64,000 bases of DNA. Origin: Paenibacillus sp. YYML68. Lineage in GTDB: Bacteria > Bacillota > Bacilli > Paenibacillales > NBRC-103111. Under the pieces are notes generated by a model. That model ran no database searches. It was given only the letters and a program-made list of their open reading frames with translations, and had not been told where the DNA came from. The stretch lies in contig NZ_BQYI01000001.1 in NCBI RefSeq assembly GCF_027923405.1, positions 2,954,501 through 3,018,500 on the forward strand, read 5' to 3'. Positions 7,222-49,630 of this stretch are shown here, piece by piece. Both the position numbers and the translations under genes were made by a program. Positions within the stretch are counted from its first letter, which is position 1. Each line of letters starts with the position of its first letter.

Positions 7222-8541
7222 TTAGGCCATGAAGTCGATTGCCCCGTTACCGTTCGAGCGTGAGCTGTTTTGGTTTGCTTCTTCATCTGCATCTTCAAGC
7301 AAGGTCAGCTTGCTGTCATTTTTATTTTGTCCGGTGAACGATTGCTGAGACTGCTGCTTACGACCATCCTGGAACATGCTGGATTGGAAGCTCTGATTTT
7401 GCGTAACCTCTAGCTTCTCCACCTGAATGCCCTGACTCTGCAACGTAGATCGAAGCGATGCGAGCTGTCCCTCGAGCATCTCCTTACCCGCAGCACTATC
7501 CGCCACGAATTGAGCAATCAGCTGTCCATTCTGCATCGTCAGCTTCACCTCAACATGACCCAGATGCTGTGGATACAGCGAGATCTTTGCCTCCGTTGCT
7601 CCATCAGCGTTAGTGCCAAGCACGAAGGAGCTTACGACGAATTTGGTCATATCATCGGCAAAATTTTGGGCCGGCATATGCAGCACTGGAGCTTTAGTAG
7701 CTGCTTGACTGTTCGCTGCTTGCTTCGATTGTTCACTTGTAAGCAATGTAATAGGCTCAGATGTACCAAGCTCTCCATTCAATGGCTCGAACAATGGCGC
7801 TTCTTCGATAACTTGCTGCTCAGGAGCTAGCTTGATCGCTTGGTAATTAACCGCGATCGCTTCCAGCTTCTGCATCGGACTTGTACTCTTCGGTACGAGC
7901 AACTCGGATACAGCAGTGCCGTTACTATCCTGTGAAGCAGTCAACGATTCTTGAAGCGTCTTCGTGTTCGCAGCTTCAGATGCCGAGGCCGCAGCTGTCA
8001 TAAGTGAAGGTAGCTTGTCGAGCAGCTGCTTCAGCTGTGCATCCTTGTCAGTACCAGCTAGAAGCTCCTTCATCTGCTTCATGACCTGAAGTGCATCAGC
8101 AGCGCCATTACGAACTGCGACTTGTGACAGCTCAGCTTCGCCATTCTCAGTATCGACTGCTGAAGTATCAGCTGCTGCTGTAATAGGAACGAACAGAAGC
8201 GCGTTCAACTCGCTTAGCAATGCTTCGAGACCCGCCTGCTCCTCTTCGAGCTGCCCTGCCTGCTCTTCTGCTCCGCTGTCTGACTGCATAGCAGCGCCTT
8301 CCGCAACTAGTGTCGCCAGTATTGCGCTAAGCTCAGCAGTCTCCATCGGGCTTAGCAGCTGCACAAGTCCGCTTAACGACAGGCCAGCTCCAGAACCGAC
8401 ACTATCAGACTGCACTTCCGTCGTCATCATACCACTGAGTGCCTTCGAGAAGCCTTCGCCCGAGGCTGCGCCTCCATTTACACCAGCTGTGCGACCAGCG
8501 GGTACTTTGGCAGTGGCTGTTGCTTGTGCTTGAATGTCCAT
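7222..8541 (-). CDS. fliK: FliK, hook-length control protein
   Basis: 439 residues. The first 300 are Ala/Glu/Ser/Gln-rich and low in order, as expected for the molecular-ruler part. The C-terminal Flg_hook domain is at about 315-395, with ISLYPQHLGHVEVKLTMQNG and AGKEMLEGQLASLRSTLQSQ. FliK is secreted during hook growth and its C-terminal domain flips FlhB from hook to filament substrates. It lies between the motE-like gene and flgD. The ordered domain and the ruler-like region are both present, so the gene looks intact. Confidence 0.93.
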   Translation of the reverse strand: MDIQAQATATAKVPAGRTAGVNGGAASGEGFSKALSGMMTTEVQSDSVGSGAGLSLSGLVQLLSPMETAELSAILATLVAEGAAMQSDSGAEEQAGQLEEEQAGLEALLSELNALLFVPITAAADTSAVDTENGEAELSQVAVRNGAADALQVMKQMKELLAGTDKDAQLKQLLDKLPSLMTAAASASEAANTKTLQESLTASQDSNGTAVSELLVPKSTSPMQKLEAIAVNYQAIKLAPEQQVIEEAPLFEPLNGELGTSEPITLLTSEQSKQAANSQAATKAPVLHMPAQNFADDMTKFVVSSFVLGTNADGATEAKISLYPQHLGHVEVKLTMQNGQLIAQFVADSAAGKEMLEGQLASLRSTLQSQGIQVEKLEVTQNQSFQSSMFQDGRKQQSQQSFTGQNKNDSKLTLLEDADEEANQNSSRSNGNGAIDFMA

Positions 8542-29114: not shown

Positions 29115-29156
29115 TCAAAACGCGCAGCGCCTCCTGTTCATTTAGAAGGCGCTGCG
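29115..29156 (-). terminator. Terminator overlapping the yraN stop
   Basis: Stem CGCAGCGCC/GGCGCTGCG is followed by CGTTTTG on the minus strand. The 5' arm includes the last codons of yraN. The T-run is short, so efficiency is uncertain. Confidence 0.6.
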
Positions 29157-29516
29157 TATATGATCCAGCTGCTGGACGACGCCCTCTGCGTTGATCCGCA
29201 CTGAGATGACATCGAAGCGCATCTGCATCGCGTGCTTGCGCTGCTCATGAACGAACACTTGTGCGGTACGAATCAGCTGCAGCTGTTTACGGGCATTGAC
29301 AGATTCGAAGGGTGTTCCGAAGCGCTCGCTCATATTGCGCGTTCTTACCTCAATAATAACCAAGGCACCGTCATCCTCCGCTACAATGTCGAGCTCGCCG
29401 GATCGGCAGCGCCAATTGTGAGCGAGCACACGGAATCCTTGCTTCTGGATATGCTGTAAGGCAGCCGCCTCGCCTCGTGCGCCACGCTGCTTGCGCCCGG
29501 CCAAATGCTCGTTCAT
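29142..29516 (-). CDS. YraN/UPF0102-family nuclease-like protein
   Basis: 124 residues from ATG at 29516, overlapping the ylqH stop by 4 bases. The core RGARGEAAALQHIQKQGFRV, NWRCRSGELDIVAEDDGALV and IIEVRTR is the restriction-endonuclease-like fold of the YraN family (E, D and ExK pattern). The family function is not established; the fold suggests DNA binding or cutting. It lies downstream of ylqG/ylqH in the rnhB operon, a common Bacilli arrangement. Confidence 0.92.
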   Translation of the reverse strand: MNEHLAGRKQRGARGEAAALQHIQKQGFRVLAHNWRCRSGELDIVAEDDGALVIIEVRTRNMSERFGTPFESVNARKQLQLIRTAQVFVHEQRKHAMQMRFDVISVRINAEGVVQQLDHIRSAF

Positions 29517-29821
29517 CCGCCCTGCCCCCATTCCTTCGCCCTAGCATCGGACCTGTAAATGTAGGAGAGTACCTCAGCGACAAGTCTGTACAGCTCTGGC
29601 GGTATTTCTTGATCAATATCCAGCTTGGAGAGCACTTCAACGAGTGACGGGTCCTCTTGAATCGGAACGCCGCTCTCCTTCGCTTTCTCTAGAATCGATT
29701 CGGCTATGCGCCCCTTGCCCTTCGCTACGACCTTCGGGGCGGCTGAGCTGCTTGGGGAATATTGGAGCGCGACCGCTTTTTTCTTCGAGAGTGATGACTG
29801 CTGCTCTTGTTCACGGCTCAT
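29513..29821 (-). CDS. ylqH: YlqH, FlhB C-terminal-like protein
   Basis: 102 residues. KKAVALQYSPSSSAAPKVVA followed by KGKGRIAESILEKAKESGVP and IDQEIPPELYRLVAEVLSYI matches the cytoplasmic C-terminal domain of FlhB/YscU-type switch proteins. It lacks the membrane half and the NPTH self-cleavage motif. It starts at about the place where cleaved FlhB-C would start. FlhB-C receives the FliK signal that ends hook export. It is coupled to ylqG by a 4-base overlap. Function in Bacilli is not established; a switch-like role is inference. Confidence 0.85.
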   Translation of the reverse strand: MSREQEQQSSLSKKKAVALQYSPSSSAAPKVVAKGKGRIAESILEKAKESGVPIQEDPSLVEVLSKLDIDQEIPPELYRLVAEVLSYIYRSDARAKEWGQGG

Positions 29822-31932
29822 ACCCGAATATCGACTCCTTTGTATGGCTTTTGCCCATAGACGGATGAGATGGAAGCCGCCTTCGCTCCAGCATCCCCCT
29901 TGCTTCCACCGCCACCTTCGTTCAGCTCACTCAGCTTCTCTGGATATGGACTCACCTTCATGGAAATAAATTGGTAGCCAATTGACGCTAGCCCTGACTC
30001 AATGTCTTCCCGATGAGAGTCGAGCAGCTGCTGCGTGAATGGCTCATTATTGTGGATGTTCAGGCTGACGATCCGGTTGACTACGTGCACATCGACAAGC
30101 GTATCGCCGAGCGCCTTCATCTTCAGGTCAAACAGCAGTCGACAGTTGCTGGAATCAAGTCTGCCTTTACCGCCCTTGCGCGATTGAATGTGGATCGCTG
30201 CGGTCTGCGATCCGTCCCCCTGATGAATGGGCACGAACAAGGTGAGATGGGAGAACATCGCGGACTTGTCATGGCTGAGCAGCAGCTGCTGCCCGGTAAT
30301 ATGCTGCACCGCCTGCTGCGCCGCCTGCTTCAGCTCACTCGACGCCTCCGGCGACTGTGCGAGCTGCATGAGGACACTCTTAAGCGATTCCGTCGACTTC
30401 GCAGATGCATCAGCCGTGGCGCCGGACTCGCCGCCCAGCAGCTTAAGCGCCTGCTGCTCATGCTCAACGCCGAGCGCCTTCATCAGGCGCCCGAGCAGTT
30501 CGGCGCCATCAGGCTGCGCTGCGCCCGCGCCTTGCTGCGCTGCGCCCTGCTGCGCTGCGCCCGCGCCTTGCTGCGCTGCGCCCTGCTGCGCTGCGCCCGC
30601 GCCCTGCTGCGCTGCGCTCGCGTCCTGCTGCGCTGCGCCTGCGCCTGGCTGCGCTGCGCCCGCGCCCTGCTGCGCTGCGCCCGCGCCTGGCTGCGCTGCG
30701 CCTGCGCCCTGCTGCGCTGCGCTCGCGCCCTGCGCTGCGCCCGCGCCTTGCTGCGCTGCGCTCGCGCTCTGCTGCGCTGCGCCTGCGCCCTGCTGCGCTG
30801 CGCTCGCGCCCTGCGCTGCGCCCGCGCCCTGCTGCGCTGCGCCCGCGCCTTGCTGCGCTGCGCTCGCGCTCTGCTGCGCTGCGCCTGCGCCCTGCTGCGC
30901 TGCGCTCGCGCCCTGCGCTGCGCCCGCGCCTTGCTGCGCTGCGCCCGCGCCCGGCTGCGCTGCGCCCGCGCCCTGCTGCGCTGCGCCCGCGCCTTGCTGC
31001 GCTGCGCCCGGCTGCGCTGCGCCCGCGCCCTGCTGCGCTGCGCCCGCGCCCTGCTGCGCTGCGCCTGCGCCTTGCTGCGCTGCGCCTGCGCCTTGCTGCG
31101 CTGCGCCCGCGCCTTGCTGCGCTGCGCTCGCGCCCTGCTGCGCTGCGCCCGCGCCCTGCGCTGCGCCTGCGCCCTGCTGCGCTGCGCCTGCACCCTGCTG
31201 CGCTGCGCCCGCGCCCTGCTGCGCTGCGCTCGCGCCCTGCTGCGTTGTCCCCGCCAGCTCACCACCTGCCGCCTTCACCTGCTGGAGCAGCGACTTCACC
31301 GATTCGAGCAGCTGCCGAGCTTCTGCGCCAAGCGGCTTACCTGACGTTAGCTCCCGCTCCACAGCTGCTGCCAGCTGGTCCAGCGTCTCATGCATCGGTT
31401 GCCCTTGGATCGCCTGCCGCAAGCCTTGCACCGTCTCTACCGTTAACGGCAGACCTTTTTGCAACGCAATCGCCGCAGCAGGCACCCATTCCTCCGCTTT
31501 CGCGTTAGGCGGCATCTGGGCTTGAAGCGTGGCAAAGGCTTGTACGTTCTCCTTCGTCAGCGGCACACGAGATTGCTGAAGCAGCTGCAGCAGCTGCCGA
31601 TGCTCTACTGTATCGTCAAGCCCCATCGTCTTCAACACATCAGCTATCGAGGAATCAGATATTCGCGCCGAAGACGAAAACAGAGGCTTCAGCACGATTT
31701 GACCGCCTGCAGATTCCGGCTGCACCTGAAGCATCGTCACCTCCCCTTGCTTAAGCGGAGTCTCCAGCTGCGCGCGAACATGCGTTCCTCCGATATTCAA
31801 TAGCGCATCCTTCTCCGAAAACTGCTGCAGCACGACACCCTTCACCACTTGACCGACCTTCAGCTCCAGTGACTTCGGCTCCTGCAGGTGCGTATCTCCC
31901 ATGAAGCCACGCAGCATCCCCGATATGTTCAT
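29818..31932 (-). CDS. ylqG: YlqG-like protein with FliK-type C-terminus and AAQQGAG repeats
   Basis: 704 residues. The N-terminal 220 residues (FMGDTHLQEPKSLELKVGQV, VLKTMGLDDTVEHRQLLQLL) are ordered and helical. Residues about 229-470 are some 36 tandem units of AAQQGAG type. The C-terminal domain (about 560-660) has FDLKMKALGDTLVDVHVVNR and SGLASIGYQFISMKVSPYPE, like the FliK hook-length-control domain. In B. subtilis ylqG is shorter and sits in the same rnhB neighbourhood. The repeat block resembles a flexible spacer, as FliK's ruler is. Function is inferred from the FliK-like end and the FlhB-C-like partner. Confidence 0.82.
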   Translation of the reverse strand: MNISGMLRGFMGDTHLQEPKSLELKVGQVVKGVVLQQFSEKDALLNIGGTHVRAQLETPLKQGEVTMLQVQPESAGGQIVLKPLFSSSARISDSSIADVLKTMGLDDTVEHRQLLQLLQQSRVPLTKENVQAFATLQAQMPPNAKAEEWVPAAAIALQKGLPLTVETVQGLRQAIQGQPMHETLDQLAAAVERELTSGKPLGAEARQLLESVKSLLQQVKAAGGELAGTTQQGASAAQQGAGAAQQGAGAAQQGAGAAQGAGAAQQGASAAQQGAGAAQQGAGAAQQGAGAAQQGAGAAQQGAGAAQPGAAQQGAGAAQQGAGAAQPGAGAAQQGAGAAQGASAAQQGAGAAQQSASAAQQGAGAAQQGAGAAQGASAAQQGAGAAQQSASAAQQGAGAAQGASAAQQGAGAAQPGAGAAQQGAGAAQPGAGAAQQDASAAQQGAGAAQQGAAQQGAGAAQQGAAQQGAGAAQPDGAELLGRLMKALGVEHEQQALKLLGGESGATADASAKSTESLKSVLMQLAQSPEASSELKQAAQQAVQHITGQQLLLSHDKSAMFSHLTLFVPIHQGDGSQTAAIHIQSRKGGKGRLDSSNCRLLFDLKMKALGDTLVDVHVVNRIVSLNIHNNEPFTQQLLDSHREDIESGLASIGYQFISMKVSPYPEKLSELNEGGGGSKGDAGAKAASISSVYGQKPYKGVDIRV
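30523..31248 (-). repeat. About 36 tandem AAQQGAG-type repeats (21-bp units) inside ylqG
   Basis: 726 bases of near-identical 21-base units coding for seven residues. Four units have six residues and three have five. Serine, proline and aspartate variants (AAQQSAS, AAQPGAG, AAQQDAS) occur, and higher-order blocks repeat. GC content is extreme. All units keep the reading frame. Long open frames in the other readings come from the same repeat. Confidence 0.97.
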
Positions 31933-32094
31933 CCTTCTTCCTCCTCTCTTCGATCCATATGACTCTCTTTGGCGAAACCAAAGACCATCGTCGTCTATAC
32001 CTTATATATCGGCCATTCACCCTGCTCCTATGACACCAACTTACACAGTGCTAATAGCCACCACGGACACTTTGGACACGATCAGAACACTCGA

Positions 32095-32712
32095 TCAGAA
32101 CAGCACCTGCTGCTGCGCTTCAATATTGCGCAGGAACGTGCGCCGATGCAGCGGACACGGCCCGAACTCCATAATGCGTTCCCGGTGCGCCTTCGTTGCA
32201 TACCCTTTATGTATCGCAATCCCGTATTCCGGATACTCGCTGTCCCATTGCCTGCACATCCGGTCTCTGGTCACCTTCGCGATGATCGAGGCTGCTGCAA
32301 TCGACTGGCTCACCGCGTCCCCATGAATGATCGCCAGCTGCTCATAGGGCACATCCACCTTCTCCGCATCGACAAGCAGCATGTCCGGTACCGGCTGTAG
32401 CTGCTCCACGGCCGCCTTCATTGCCAATCTCGCCGCTTGCTTAATATTGACGCGCTCAATCGTAGCCACATCGATAACGCCGATTCCGATCGCGACCGCT
32501 TCCTGCTGAATCAGCTCATAGAGCGATTCGCGCTTCCTCTCGGACAGCTTCTTCGAATCATTCACGCCCTCGAGTATCATTCCTTGAGGCAATATGACTG
32601 CAGCCGCGACGACATCTCCAAGCAGGCAGCCGCGACCGACCTCATCGACTCCGGCGATGAGCCGTTTACCGAGCGCCCACTGCTCCTGTTCGTGGTGAAG
32701 ACCAGCTTCCAC
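32095..32712 (-). CDS. rnhB: RNase HII
   Basis: 205 residues from GTG at 32712 (AGGAG eight bases upstream; an in-frame GTG at 32721 overlaps that site). The catalytic GVDEVGRGCLLGDVVAAAVI comes first, LLVDAEKVDVPY supplies the next acidic residue, and AAASIIAKVTRDRMCRQWDS is the family motif. It nicks at ribonucleotides in DNA and removes RNA from hybrids. It leads the ylqG-ylqH-yraN group. Confidence 0.96.
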   Translation of the reverse strand: MEAGLHHEQEQWALGKRLIAGVDEVGRGCLLGDVVAAAVILPQGMILEGVNDSKKLSERKRESLYELIQQEAVAIGIGVIDVATIERVNIKQAARLAMKAAVEQLQPVPDMLLVDAEKVDVPYEQLAIIHGDAVSQSIAAASIIAKVTRDRMCRQWDSEYPEYGIAIHKGYATKAHRERIMEFGPCPLHRRTFLRNIEAQQQVLF

Positions 32713-32851
32713 AGTATTCACTCCTATCCGTAATTCTCGCTTCTCGGCATTCTTGCCGTTCGCAACAATGTATTTTTCATTATAACGTACAGCACCTTGA
32801 AGTGACTATCCCATCTGCATTGATCACCTTATCCATCATTTGCATATGCTC

Positions 32852-43839: not shown

Positions 43840-46800
43840 CTACCCCGCTTCCATAATCGCCTCTTCGTCCTCCAAACGAACCGAGACGAGCTTGGACACG
43901 CCGCCCTCCTCCATCGTGACGCCGTACAGCACATCGGCCTCCTCCATCGTCCCCTTGCGGTGCGTGACGACGATGAACTGCGTCTGCTGCGAGAACTCTC
44001 GCAAATATTCGGCGAAGCGGGTAACGTTCGCCTCATCCAGCGCCGCCTCGACCTCGTCGAGGACGCAGAACGGCACTGGCTTAACGCGGATGATCGAGAA
44101 CAACAGCGCGATCGCGGTCAGCGCCCGCTCGCCGCCGGAGAGCAGCTGCAGGTTTTGCAGCTTTTTGCCGGGAGGCTGTGCGACAATCTCGATGCCCGTA
44201 TCCAGCAGGCTGTCCGGCTCGGACAAGATGAGGTCCGCCCGACCGCCGCCGAACAGCTTCGCGAACACGACGACGAAGTGCGAGCGGATCGCGTCGAACG
44301 TATGGCGGAACCGCTTCGACATCTCTTCATCCATCTCGCGAATAACGTTGTACAGCGCCGTCTTCGCATCCACAAGGTCCTTACGCTGCTCGTCGAGGAA
44401 CAGGAAGCGCTCGTTCACACGCTGATACTCCTCGATCGCCCCAAGATTCACATCGCCGAGAATGGCGATCTCGCGCTTCAGGTCGCGCACCTTGTTCTGC
44501 GTGCCCAGCACATCCTCCGGCACCGGATAGCGCTCCTTGGCGAGCTCGTAGCTGAGCTCGTAATCCTCGGACAGCTTCTTTAGCAGATTCTCGAGCTCGA
44601 CGTCGAGTCGATTCGTCTTCACCTCGGTCTGCCGTAGCTGCTCCTCGACAGAGCGTAGCTCGTTGCGCTGCTCCCGCGTCTTGTTCTCCTCGGCCTCCAG
44701 CTTCGCGAGCCAGCTGGCCCGCTCCGCCCGCTTCAGCTCCAGCTGCTCCGCGCACTGCTGCTTCTTCAGCTTCAGCTCGTTCAGCAGCTCGATCTGCACG
44801 ATCGTCTCCTGATCATGGTTATTCATATCAGCTTCGAGCTGCGCGAGTGACTGTCGGTTCGCTTCCAGATCAGCGCGAATGAGCTCCAGCTCGGCCACGA
44901 GCCTGCGCTCCTGCTCTGCATGCCACTGCTTCTCCTGCATCTGGGCAGCGGCCGTCACCTTCAGCTCAGTCAGCTGCGATTGCAGCTCCTCCTTGGCAGA
45001 CTCACTTGCCTTACGCCGCACCTCCGCGTCGCGGATCGCCTGCTGCAGCGTCTCCTCCTCCTGCGCCAGTCGTACGAGCGACTCCCGGGCAGCGGTGCGT
45101 CTAGCCTCCAGCTCCGACCGCTCGGCATGCAGCGATTGATCATCCGCGCCGTACAGCGCGAGCTGGTCAGCTACCTGCCTCGCTTCTTGAGCAAGTGGCT
45201 CGAGCGAGGCGCGAATCTGCTGCTCCTCGATGCGTCTTGACTCGCCCAGCTCACGCAGCTCGTCCAGCTCCTTGCCAGCGTCGCCAATCTCCTGCTTGAG
45301 CGCTGCCGCCTTCACGCGCAGCTGCTGCAGCTGCTCCTCGGACGAGGCGATCTCCTTGTCCATCTCTTCGATCTGTCGCTGGCGGCTGAGCAGACTTGTC
45401 GACTTCTTCTGCTGGCTACCGCCGGTCATCGAGCCCCCCGGATTGACGACGTCACCCTCCAGCGTCACGACACGATACCGGTATTGGACACGGGCCGCAA
45501 TCCGGTTCGCCGTCTCCAGCGTCTGCGCGACGATAACGTTGCCGAGCAAGCTGCTAATAATGTTGCGGTACGTCTCCTCGAACTGAACGAGCTCAACGGC
45601 GATGCCGACGAAGCCGTCCATCCCTTGCAGACTGCGCTGCTCCTGCTCGGGTACCGAGCGGCCGCGAATAACATCATGCGGCAGGAACGTCGCACGTCCG
45701 AGCTGTCTGCGCTTCAGGAAGCCGATCGCCTCCCGTCCATCCGCCTCGCTCGCGACGACGACGTGCTGCAGTGCACCGCCAAGAGCGGTCTCCATCGCGA
45801 CCTCGACGTGCGCAGGCACCTTGACGAGCTCTGCAACTGCACCGCGAATGCCACGCAGCTCGCCTCGCCCCTTCGCCTTCAGCACTTCCTTGACCCCATG
45901 CATGAAGCCATCGTAGTCATTGGCCATCTCCAGCATCGTATCGCGTCTCGATACAAGCGCATCGAGCTTCTGCTCCCAGCGTCGTACTGCGACCTGCGCT
46001 TCCTCCGCAACCGATTGCTTCGCCTTCGCACCTTGGCTCACCTGAATGTACCGATTGCGGACCTCCTCAATGCCCGCGACCGCCTTCTCGAGCCGCTTCT
46101 CGAGCGCCGCCTTGCGGGCGACGATGCTCGCCTCTTGGTCACGCCAACGACGATGCTCCTCGCCGAGCCGGTCCAGCCGGCGCGACAGCGCCTCCAGCTG
46201 CTGCTCGGCATAGCGGGCTTCGTTCCGAGCATTCGCCGTCCCGTTCAGCACCTCGAGCAGCTCGCCCTTGAGCCGATCCTCCTCAGCGCTGCTCGTTCCG
46301 CCTGCGACGCCAAGCAGCCGATCCTCCTCGGCCTTCAGCTGCCCTTGCGTGACCGCTAACCGCTCGGCAATCGAGCGCAGCTTCACTCGAAGCTCCTCGA
46401 GCTCCTCCTGCTTGCTCGCGGCTCGAGACTCATGCTGCTTCACGCTAATGTCGAGCTGGGCGCGATTCGACGCGTAATTGCGCTTGCGCTCCTTGAGCAC
46501 CTCGCCCTGACCCTCGCACTTCTCGAACTCCTCGCTAATCTGCAGCAGCGAGCGCTGCAGCAGCTCGACCTGCTCCTCCAGCTGACGCAGCTCCCAGCGG
46601 TCCGTCTCCAGCTGTGCATCGTGCGCGCTCACGAGCCCGGACAGCTCCAGCTGCTTCTCCTTCAGCTGCTCTAGCCGCTTGCTCGTCTCCGCCCACGTCT
46701 CGTAGATTTGCTCGATCTGATACACGTACATCGCGATCTCTTTGCTCTTCAGCTCCTCCTTCAATTCCTTGAAGCGGATCGCCTTGTCCGATTGCTGACG

Positions 46801-47415
46801 CAGCGGATCGAGCTGATCCTCGAGCTCGGTAATGAGGTCATGAATGCGCAGCAGATTTTGCTCCGTCTCCTGCAGCTTCTTCTCCGTTTCTTTCTTACGC
46901 GATTTATATTTCACAATGCCCGACGCCTCTTCGAAGATGCCGCGCCGATCCTCGGACTTCGTGCTTAATATTTCCTCAATACGGCCCTGACCGATAATCG
47001 AATACGCTTCCTTACCGATCCCCGTATCCATGAACAGCTCGGTAATGTCCTTCAGCCGGCACGCCTGCTTGTTGATTAAGTACTCGCTCTCTCCGCTGCG
47101 GTGCACGCGGCGCGTCACGGTAACCTCCTGGTAATCCAGTGGCAGCGCCTGACTCGCATTATCGAGCGTCAGCGACACCTCGCCGTAGTTGACCGCCTTC
47201 CTCGCGTCGCTCCCGGCAAAAATAACGTCCTGCATGTTGCCGCCACGCAGCGACCGCGCGCTCTGCTCGCCGAGCACCCAGCGGATCGCATCGGATATAT
47301 TGCTCTTGCCGCTCCCGTTCGGACCGACAACAGCCGTAATGCCGTTCACGAATTCAAGCTCTGTCCGATCCGCGAACGACTTGAATCCCGACAGCTCTAT
47401 ACGCTTCAAATACAA
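43840..47415 (-). CDS. smc: SMC, chromosome condensin ATPase
   Basis: 1191 residues from TTG at 47415 (GAGAGGTG upstream). Walker [15 protein letters not shown] is at about 32-45. Two long coiled coils flank a hinge near 500-680 ([20 protein letters not shown]). The C-terminal signature [19 protein letters not shown] and Walker [16 protein letters not shown] complete the head. It loads at parS with ScpAB and organises the chromosome. Normal length. Confidence 0.98.
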
Positions 47416-47790: not shown

Positions 47791-48729
47791 TCAGAACGTA
47801 TTTAATCTTAATGCCTTGATTCTTTCTTTTAAGTAGTCGGTTATTTGTAAGCTTTCAGACTCCTCTAAAGAATCCAAGAGACTCTCCCCTTTGGCCTTAA
47901 AGTAATCTGATTCTTCTTGAAGTCGACGTACTGACCTTATTAATACATCGTTCGTGTTGTTACTCTCGAAAGCATGATCATGATCGAATAATGGAGCAGG
48001 TCCTAGATACTTTCCTGTATTAGCGTCTCTTAAGAAACCAAAGTTACCAGCATGTCTATCCCCATTCGCTACTAGAGCATCAAAGAACAACATATTGAAT
48101 CCAAAGTGACCGAACTCTCTGACAACATCCTCATCTGTGAAGTCGTACGGATCAATCCTACCTGAAGAATTGGCTGCTTCAAACATAACGTCTGGGTTAG
48201 TAAAGTTGGTAACTGCTATCCTACCTTCAAAAGGTTTTACTTCCGCACAAGGTATTTTGAGTGCAGAAGCTAATTCATAGCAATATATCTCTTTCACATC
48301 TTTAGACTTGATTAAGGTGTCCTTATCTTTCCAGTACTTAGGTAAGAAACCACTCACATATAAAGTAGGAATAGACTGATTGTTATATGGGGTTTCCCCT
48401 GTCCAGAAGTTTGAGTAATATGGAGACTTGTCTTCGAACTTTATATCCTCATCCTTCATTCTTATCCAGTAACAATCAGATAAGCTAAAGGAATGCGTAG
48501 TCATATTTATCTGTTGTCTGTTACCTTGACCGAAAGTGAAGGACTGTAAGGCTCTGGCAAAAGTATTAGTATTCTGTGAATATCTAAGTTGCATCCATCT
48601 CAAAAATGTTTCCTTAGTTGGACTTGACTTAAGCATACCAGGCAATAGTGACTCTTCTATAATCTTTTCATTGCTCACATCGAATATGGCTATATCCTTG
48701 CATAGTAAGACTATTTTATCCACAACCAA
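47791..48729 (-). CDS. HipA/CtkA-like kinase-fold protein (inserted)
   Basis: 312 residues from TTG at 48729 (AGAGG upstream). HSFSLSDCYWIRMKDEDI is a feature I associate with phage- and element-borne HipA-domain proteins. A Lys in DTLIK and a helix EIYCYELASAL fit a kinase N-lobe. The catalytic loop is DALVANGDRHAGNFGFL and the metal site GPAPLFDHDHAFES. These agree with HipA-type Ser/Thr kinase. No HipB-like antitoxin gene is adjacent. The gene is clearly AT-richer than its neighbours and lies between rnc and smc, which touch in B. subtilis. Confidence 0.78.
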   Translation of the reverse strand: MVVDKIVLLCKDIAIFDVSNEKIIEESLLPGMLKSSPTKETFLRWMQLRYSQNTNTFARALQSFTFGQGNRQQINMTTHSFSLSDCYWIRMKDEDIKFEDKSPYYSNFWTGETPYNNQSIPTLYVSGFLPKYWKDKDTLIKSKDVKEIYCYELASALKIPCAEVKPFEGRIAVTNFTNPDVMFEAANSSGRIDPYDFTDEDVVREFGHFGFNMLFFDALVANGDRHAGNFGFLRDANTGKYLGPAPLFDHDHAFESNNTNDVLIRSVRRLQEESDYFKAKGESLLDSLEESESLQITDYLKERIKALRLNTF

Positions 48730-48812: not shown

Positions 48813-49517
48813 TTAAGACTTCAACGGCTTCACATTCAGCTGCTTCAGCGCCTCAGACGCTGCATGCTGCTCCGCTTCCTTCTTCGAGCGACCGGCGCCT
48901 TGTCCCAGCTGCTGATCCTGCAGGTACACCTCTGCGACGAACTCCCGCTCATGCGCCGGCCCACGCTCGTCCACAATTCTGTACTCGAGCGGACCGAGGC
49001 TGTGCTGCTGAATGTGCTCCTGAAGCAGCGTCTTGTAATCGGCCGTCAACAGGCGGCCTTGCTCCGGCAAGTGCGGGAACATATGCTTCTGCAGAAACGT
49101 CCGCACCACCTCAAGTCCTTGATCCAGATACAACGCGCCGATGAACGATTCGAACACGTCCGCGAGCAGCGCCGGCCGTGTCCGGCCGCCTGTCAGCTCC
49201 TCTCCTTTGCCGAGCAGCACATAAGAGCCGAATTGGAGCTGCTCGGCAAAGCCGACGAGCGAAGGCTCGCACACGATCGAAGCTCTCAGCTTCGTCAGCT
49301 CGCCCTCCGAGCGGTCTGGGTATTTATCGAACAAATATTCGGAGACAGTCAGCTCCAGTACAGCGTCACCGAGAAATTCAAGTCGTTCGTTATCCTTATG
49401 CTGTCCCATCCGGTGCTCATTCACATAAGACGAATGCGTGAAGGCTTGCCTCAGTAGGTCGGGGCTTCGGAACGGCAGAGACAGCTCGCTCTGCAGCTGC
49501 TTTAAATTACGATGCAT
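48813..49517 (-). CDS. rnc: RNase III
   Basis: 234 residues from ATG at 49517 (AAGGTGAT upstream). The catalytic motif [20 protein letters not shown] is followed by the second acidic site in [20 protein letters not shown]. The double-stranded RNA-binding domain ([20 protein letters not shown] to AASEALKQL) closes the protein. It cuts rRNA precursors and other duplex RNA. It follows fabF. Confidence 0.98.
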
Positions 49518-49630
49518 TAGGATCACCTTCATCTGTGCAAGTAGTTAGGCAGACGGCGGAGGCAGCTCCTCCTTGCCCGGAGCGCTTCCGCCGCTTGCCC
49601 ATAATCTTAGTATTGAACGCAGGAAACAGA

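Follow-up and report, generated by a model that had tools for sequence, protein, structure and literature searches.

A FliK-like/FlhX gene pair outside fla/che in Paenibacillus as a candidate auxiliary switch of flagellar export

We describe here a two-gene unit, ylqG-ylqH, which encodes a FliK-like protein and a stand-alone FlhB C-terminal domain of the FlhX type. From the computational analysis of its domains, its distribution, its duplicated copies and its promoter region, we have little doubt that ylqG-ylqH is a FliK-like/FlhX pair of flagellar export and we give a probability of roughly 0.5 to its being an auxiliary switch of export specificity that acts on the type III gate of the flagellum. 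In the window, i.e. the whole 64-kb stretch of DNA that was analysed, a large part of fla/che is located at the left end; the pair lies outside of it, flanked by rnhB (32095-32721) on one side and by a yraN-like gene on the other. The genes compared are:

29818-31932, minus strand: ylqG-like gene (YlqG), FliK-like, 704 aa (open reading frame; Flg_hook on the C-domain; family profile)
29513-29821, minus strand: ylqH-like gene (YlqH, FlhX type), 102 aa, corresponding to the cleaved C-terminal domain of FlhB only (PF01312; TIGR00789)
7222-8541, minus strand: true fliK of fla/che, the comparison gene (Flg_hook, 77.6 bits)

The earlier note on this DNA had placed a coupled pair at these positions, next to rnhB and distinct from a true fliK in fla/che, and on all these points it was right: ylqG and ylqH overlap by 4 bp, sharing ATGA, and the slot beside flgD in fla/che is occupied by the true fliK, not by ylqG. 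The genome contains one full flhB, in the flagellar operon just left of the window (457 bits). Thus, with a normal fliK and a full flhB present, the ylqG-ylqH pair is extra to both. The yraN-like gene (29142-29531, minus strand) shares 19 bp with the 3’ end of ylqH, and hence ylqG, ylqH and yraN may form a single transcript.

The regions distinguished in YlqG are as follows:

31684-31869, minus strand: N-terminal beta-barrel, OB/S1-like in the model, residues ~22-83 (AlphaFold2; Foldseek)
31255-31665, minus strand: helical region, residues ~90-226 (AlphaFold2)
30505-31248, minus strand: Ala/Gln/Gly tandem-repeat linker, residues 229-476 (TRF; composition)
30283-30300, minus strand: conserved TGQQL motif in the helix preceding the switch domain, residues 545-550 (two alignments)
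29950-30255, minus strand: predicted FliK/T3S4-type switch domain, residues 560-661 (Flg_hook; hhalign; 2rrl; Foldseek 5cuk)
29821-29850, minus strand: C-terminal tail KPYKGVDIRV, with Asp at -4 (alignments)

YlqG had been proposed to end in a FliK-like domain, and this is upheld, with different force for the single protein and for its family. Flg_hook (PF02120) is absent from the Pfam scan of full-length YlqG; the C-terminal 190 aa alone match it with an E-value of 1.6e-5 and 25.1 bits, which is below the Pfam curated cut-off of 29.8 bits, and in a scan of the whole genome YlqG ranks second (25.7 bits vs 77.6 for the true FliK). Among orthologues, 21 of 26 YlqG C-domains match Flg_hook, and several orthologues score above the curated cut-off, with values of up to 37.1 bits. 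HMM-HMM comparison (hhalign) of the YlqG family with 28 FliK C-domains gives a probability of 91 and an E-value of 9.1e-7, and, when the YlqG profile is run against the entire PDB, the top match is the FliK C-domain 2rrl (E 0.0021), the second match being unrelated (E 0.39). The model of the YlqG C-domain is of moderate confidence (mean pLDDT 59, ~75-91 over the core); its top Foldseek match is the SctP/PscP switch domain (PDB 5cuk; prob 1.00, E 8.6e-3, rmsd 2.3 over 68 columns when superposed), and 2rrl is matched with prob 0.99 and E 0.063. PscP is an injectisome protein, whereas the one full FlhB-family protein of this genome is encoded in the flagellar operon. Matches to DUF6240 were sub-threshold (E 0.0023). 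As judged from profiles and from the model, the C-terminal domain of YlqG is a FliK switch domain, an assignment that is weak for the protein of the window and solid for the family.

The extreme C-terminus of YlqG is also kept, and is preceded by a variable stretch. Asp at -4 is observed in 26/26 YlqG sequences of Bacilli, 18/19 relatives from outside Bacilli and 12/28 FliK sequences, and GVDIRV satisfies the motif h-D-x-x-[VILA] found in part of the FliK proteins. The last five residues of Salmonella FliK are important for switching (PMC10965912), and have been proposed to destabilise and eject the cleaved C-terminal domain of FlhB, FlhB-CCD (PMC13344023). YlqG thus has in common with FliK the fold of the switch domain, the tail Asp at -4 and the overall layout, but differs from it in forming a clade of its own (100/100 in the tree of FliK-like C-domains), in its beta-barrel and helical N-terminus, in its hypervariable linker, in its location outside fla/che and in coexisting with a true FliK.

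That linker, already noted as a long central repeat, spans 248 aa (105 A, 65 Q, 59 G and the rest) encoded by 18-24 copies of a 21/42-bp unit (TRF), and follows a barrel modelled by AlphaFold2 with a mean pLDDT of 75, for which Foldseek retrieves OB/S1 folds with low global TM. The succession of N-terminal part, flexible linker, switch domain and tail is the layout of FliK (PMC6972891), and YlqG might on these grounds be regarded as a second secreted hook-length ruler, its length set by the repeat. We consider this very improbable. Across 51 genomes, the coefficient of variation of length is 0.205 for YlqG vs 0.091 for FliK and the two lengths are uncorrelated (Spearman 0.03); repeat units vary between species; and the YlqG of P. 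elgii (525 aa) and of P. tyrfis (775-779 aa) have nearly identical ends and linkers that differ by ~250 aa, a comparison in which collapsed repeats in draft assemblies may play a part. Since both the length and the repeat unit of YlqG differ freely from one sister species to the next, whereas the length of FliK is held, a ruler role of YlqG is unlikely, and the repeat is best read as a hypervariable flexible linker. Two plus-strand ORFs of ~440 aa (30013-31344 and 30227-31525) run antisense across it; they arise from the repeat, and it is improbable that they are genes.

For YlqH, the claim to be assessed was that it consists of FlhB-C alone, with neither NPTH nor a membrane half, and every part of it was confirmed. 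YlqH matches PF01312 (Bac_export_2) only at positions 262-335, which are the final 74 of the family (E 2.9e-21, 76.5 bits), lacks the membrane half of FlhB, and retrieves FlhB-C (PDB 3b1s, E 3e-21) from the PDB. In an alignment with 30 FlhB of Bacilli, all 30 of which contain NPTH, this motif was found in 0/29 YlqH and 0/8 second-copy FlhX sequences. The best NCBIfam match is TIGR00789 (flhB_rel; E 1.1e-31), at 108.8 bits below the curated cut-off of 117.35; as that cut-off is reached in only 4 of 301 Bacilli genomes, it is narrow. Residues A28, P29, A82 and position 85 were matched to the FlhB pocket through what we take to be the Salmonella numbering, giving the following features:

29555-29776, minus strand: FlhB-CCD-like fold, YlqH residues 16-89 (alignment with 30 FlhB; PDB 3b1s)
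29735-29740, minus strand: A28-P29, presumed equivalents of FlhB pocket A286-P287 (A28 in 96% and P29 in 100% of 29 YlqH)
29567-29578, minus strand: A82-L85, presumed equivalents of FlhB A341/L344 (A82 in 100%; L, F or M at position 85)

Fold family and early-substrate pocket are therefore common to YlqH and FlhB-C (PF01312; PDB 3b1s, 3b0z), the pocket of FlhB being composed of A286, P287, A341 and L344 (PMC9307174). YlqH departs from FlhB in its missing membrane part and NPTH autocleavage site and in a set of class-specific changes: KGxD becomes KGxG, and ENxPLARALY becomes EDxSLVExL with the loss of one residue, so that PLAR is replaced by SLVE-like residues. Because of these changes, YlqH may not fit in the gate exactly as FlhB-CCD does. 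In the FlhX tree, FlhB forms one separate branch (100/99, length 2.64) and all YlqH-type sequences fall outside of it. This separation, together with the class-specific positions, indicates that YlqH represents a distinct subfamily and no fresh truncation of FlhB.

How the pair is distributed was surveyed in 301 Bacilli genomes, of which 213 contain a full FlhB and 88 do not. At least two TIGR00789 matches, as counted from match numbers and not from inspection of each second match, were obtained in 193 of the 213 FlhB-positive genomes, and not one match in any of the 88 others (Fisher p 6e-57, uncorrected for relatedness). The YlqG profile matches 174 of the 301. About 20 FlhB-positive genomes have no second FlhB-C match, and the pair is thus dispensable; two of these (G179 and G198, of the same genus as G052) have a full FlhB and match neither a second FlhB-C nor YlqG, and there ylqG and ylqH appear to have been lost together. 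The overlap is exactly 4 bp in 36/46 FliK-like/FlhX pairs. A search for related loci starting from the single window sequence returned Paenibacillus only; in loci opened outside Bacilli but within the same GTDB phylum, a FliK-like gene lies directly upstream of FlhX in 19 of 20, and 16 of these 19 genes match Flg_hook with E<=0.1.

These data bear on whether the pair could be a passive backup, YlqH serving as a spare FlhB-CCD and YlqG as a redundant second FliK, both active only when the main part fails. There is precedent: H. pylori HP1575, the FlhX of Helicobacter, to which YlqH had correctly been likened, is the subject of Wand et al. 2006, which, as cited in PMC3040844, carries the words “spare part” in its title. 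The absence of the pair from some flagellated genomes is also compatible with a backup. We nevertheless regard it as unlikely, given that YlqH has fixed, class-specific residues unlike those of FlhB, that it separated from FlhB once, along a long branch (100/99), and that it has a dedicated and conserved partner; retention of the pair in most flagellated Bacilli further argues for a role of its own.

In 8 loci (L119-L125 and L128; e.g. L119:5022-9475), a second FliK-like/FlhX pair was found. Its FliK-like protein is giant, about 770-1940 aa in length, again with Asp at -4 in the tail, and the gene encoding it overlaps or abuts the second FlhX. Directly after this pair, 7 of the 8 loci, from several families, contain a fliS-like gene and a flagellin gene, both named by eye from sequence. 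The second copies form one clade for each partner (98/89 in the FlhX tree, 99/99 in that of the FliK-like C-domains), as expected from joint duplication of the pair. It could be argued that ylqG-ylqH is a relic, a non-functional duplication of fliK-flhB retained through synteny, the only point in its favour being that, as far as could be searched, no function has been published. This is scarcely credible: the pair is intact and conserved in Bacilli as well as in other classes of the Bacillota, its genes repeatedly occur together and have been duplicated, and its tail and promoter motif are conserved.

The promoter motif in question is the following:

32006-32013, minus strand: sigma-D-type -10 box GCCGATAT, exact, 81 bp before the ylqG ATG

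The sigma-D consensus is TAAA-N15-GCCGATAT (PMC5200910). In the window, the -35 element, 15 bp further upstream, is CATA, which is poor against that consensus, and an exact consensus with -35 TAAA or RAAA finds no match at the ylqG promoter of this genome. Neither is there any excess of GCCGATAT in the window (2 seen vs 2.4 expected by chance). With at most one change, however, the box precedes ylqG in 14/15 Paenibacillus loci (the window and 14 relatives), and the 13 box-bearing relatives have GAAA, TCAA or ACAA 15 bp upstream, near the consensus TAAA. As these species are related, this represents conservation, not independent proof. Among the other families checked for which the start could be placed, no exact sigma-D -10 lies within 300 bp of ylqG. 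An Rfam scan upstream of ylqG gave no credible match (top, ylbH leader, E 0.37). Several Paenibacillus relatives (L129-L146; ~4920-5019 in L138) contain a GC-rich inverted repeat, GCCGGC...GCCGGC, followed by a T-rich stretch, downstream of the sigma-D-like box and ahead of the ylqG start; it is possibly an attenuator.

The link to flagella made in the earlier note is thereby supported on three counts, namely the restriction of a second FlhB-C to FlhB-positive genomes, the second copy before fliS-hag and the sigma-D-like promoter. The latter two suggest late-type expression and, along with the 96-100% retention in YlqH of the equivalents of A286, P287 and A341, would suit a cytoplasmic sink, in which the YlqH pocket captures early rod/hook substrates after the switch and so halts futile export, under regulation by YlqG. 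A FliK-type switch domain as fixed partner is not readily explained in this way, and we hold a sink to be rather improbable.

As far as sequence can tell, the pair is best accounted for as a second or modulating switch, which is how the earlier note had read it. YlqH, a free FlhB-CCD, would be able to take the place of the C-terminal fragment of FlhB, which FliK would eject once the hook is complete. YlqG would be its dedicated FliK-type partner, binding YlqH through its switch domain and GVDxR[IV] tail, and the two would act together on the export state, rod/hook versus filament, by modulating it, backing it up or resetting it, hook length being measured by FliK and not by YlqG. The computation shows the domains, the pairing, the co-occurrence with FlhB, the joint duplication, the place ahead of fliS-flagellin and the promoter motif; that YlqG binds YlqH, that YlqH docks on the gate and that switching is affected is what we infer. 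This reading fits the flagellar context and the model of a FliK-driven ejection of FlhB-CCD, proposed for the flagellar switch in a 2026 Salmonella study in which FlhX is unmentioned (PMC13344023). More speculatively, and we think it doubtful, the FliK/FlhB-CCD cassette might make the switch reversible or re-loadable, YlqH refilling under YlqG control the site vacated by FlhB-CCD, with the second, giant cassette tuning flagellin export in some families.

FlhX itself (TIGR00789; H. pylori HP1575) is already known and, like YlqH, is a short protein made of FlhB-CCD only, found beside a full FlhB. In the FlhX description that was consulted, the FliK-like partner and the second copies of the Bacillota pair do not figure, and the module of FlhX with a FliK-like partner appears undescribed. 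What is new is the co-occurrence of a second FlhB-C with FlhB, the FliK-like gene upstream, the duplicated pair before fliS-flagellin and the sigma-D-type box. With an additional free FlhB-CCD and a FliK-type partner of its own encoded in many Bacillota, one may ask whether a second pair serves to reset, lock or buffer the switch; if so, a likely function would be at hand for conserved genes with almost no literature. The names ylqG and ylqH originate from B. subtilis, a tractable organism. In the open-licence literature, we found neither the pair as a Bacillota module nor a functional study of ylqG or ylqH; one paper names “flhX-fliK” for Nitratiruptor (PMC9321776), and a B. subtilis swarming-evolution paper lists ylqG P457Q among other mutations.

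Elsewhere in the window, a HipA/kinase-like ORF of 312 aa, named by eye (47791-48729, minus strand), has smc (43840-47415) and rnc (48813-49532) on either side of it, which is an odd position for such a gene.
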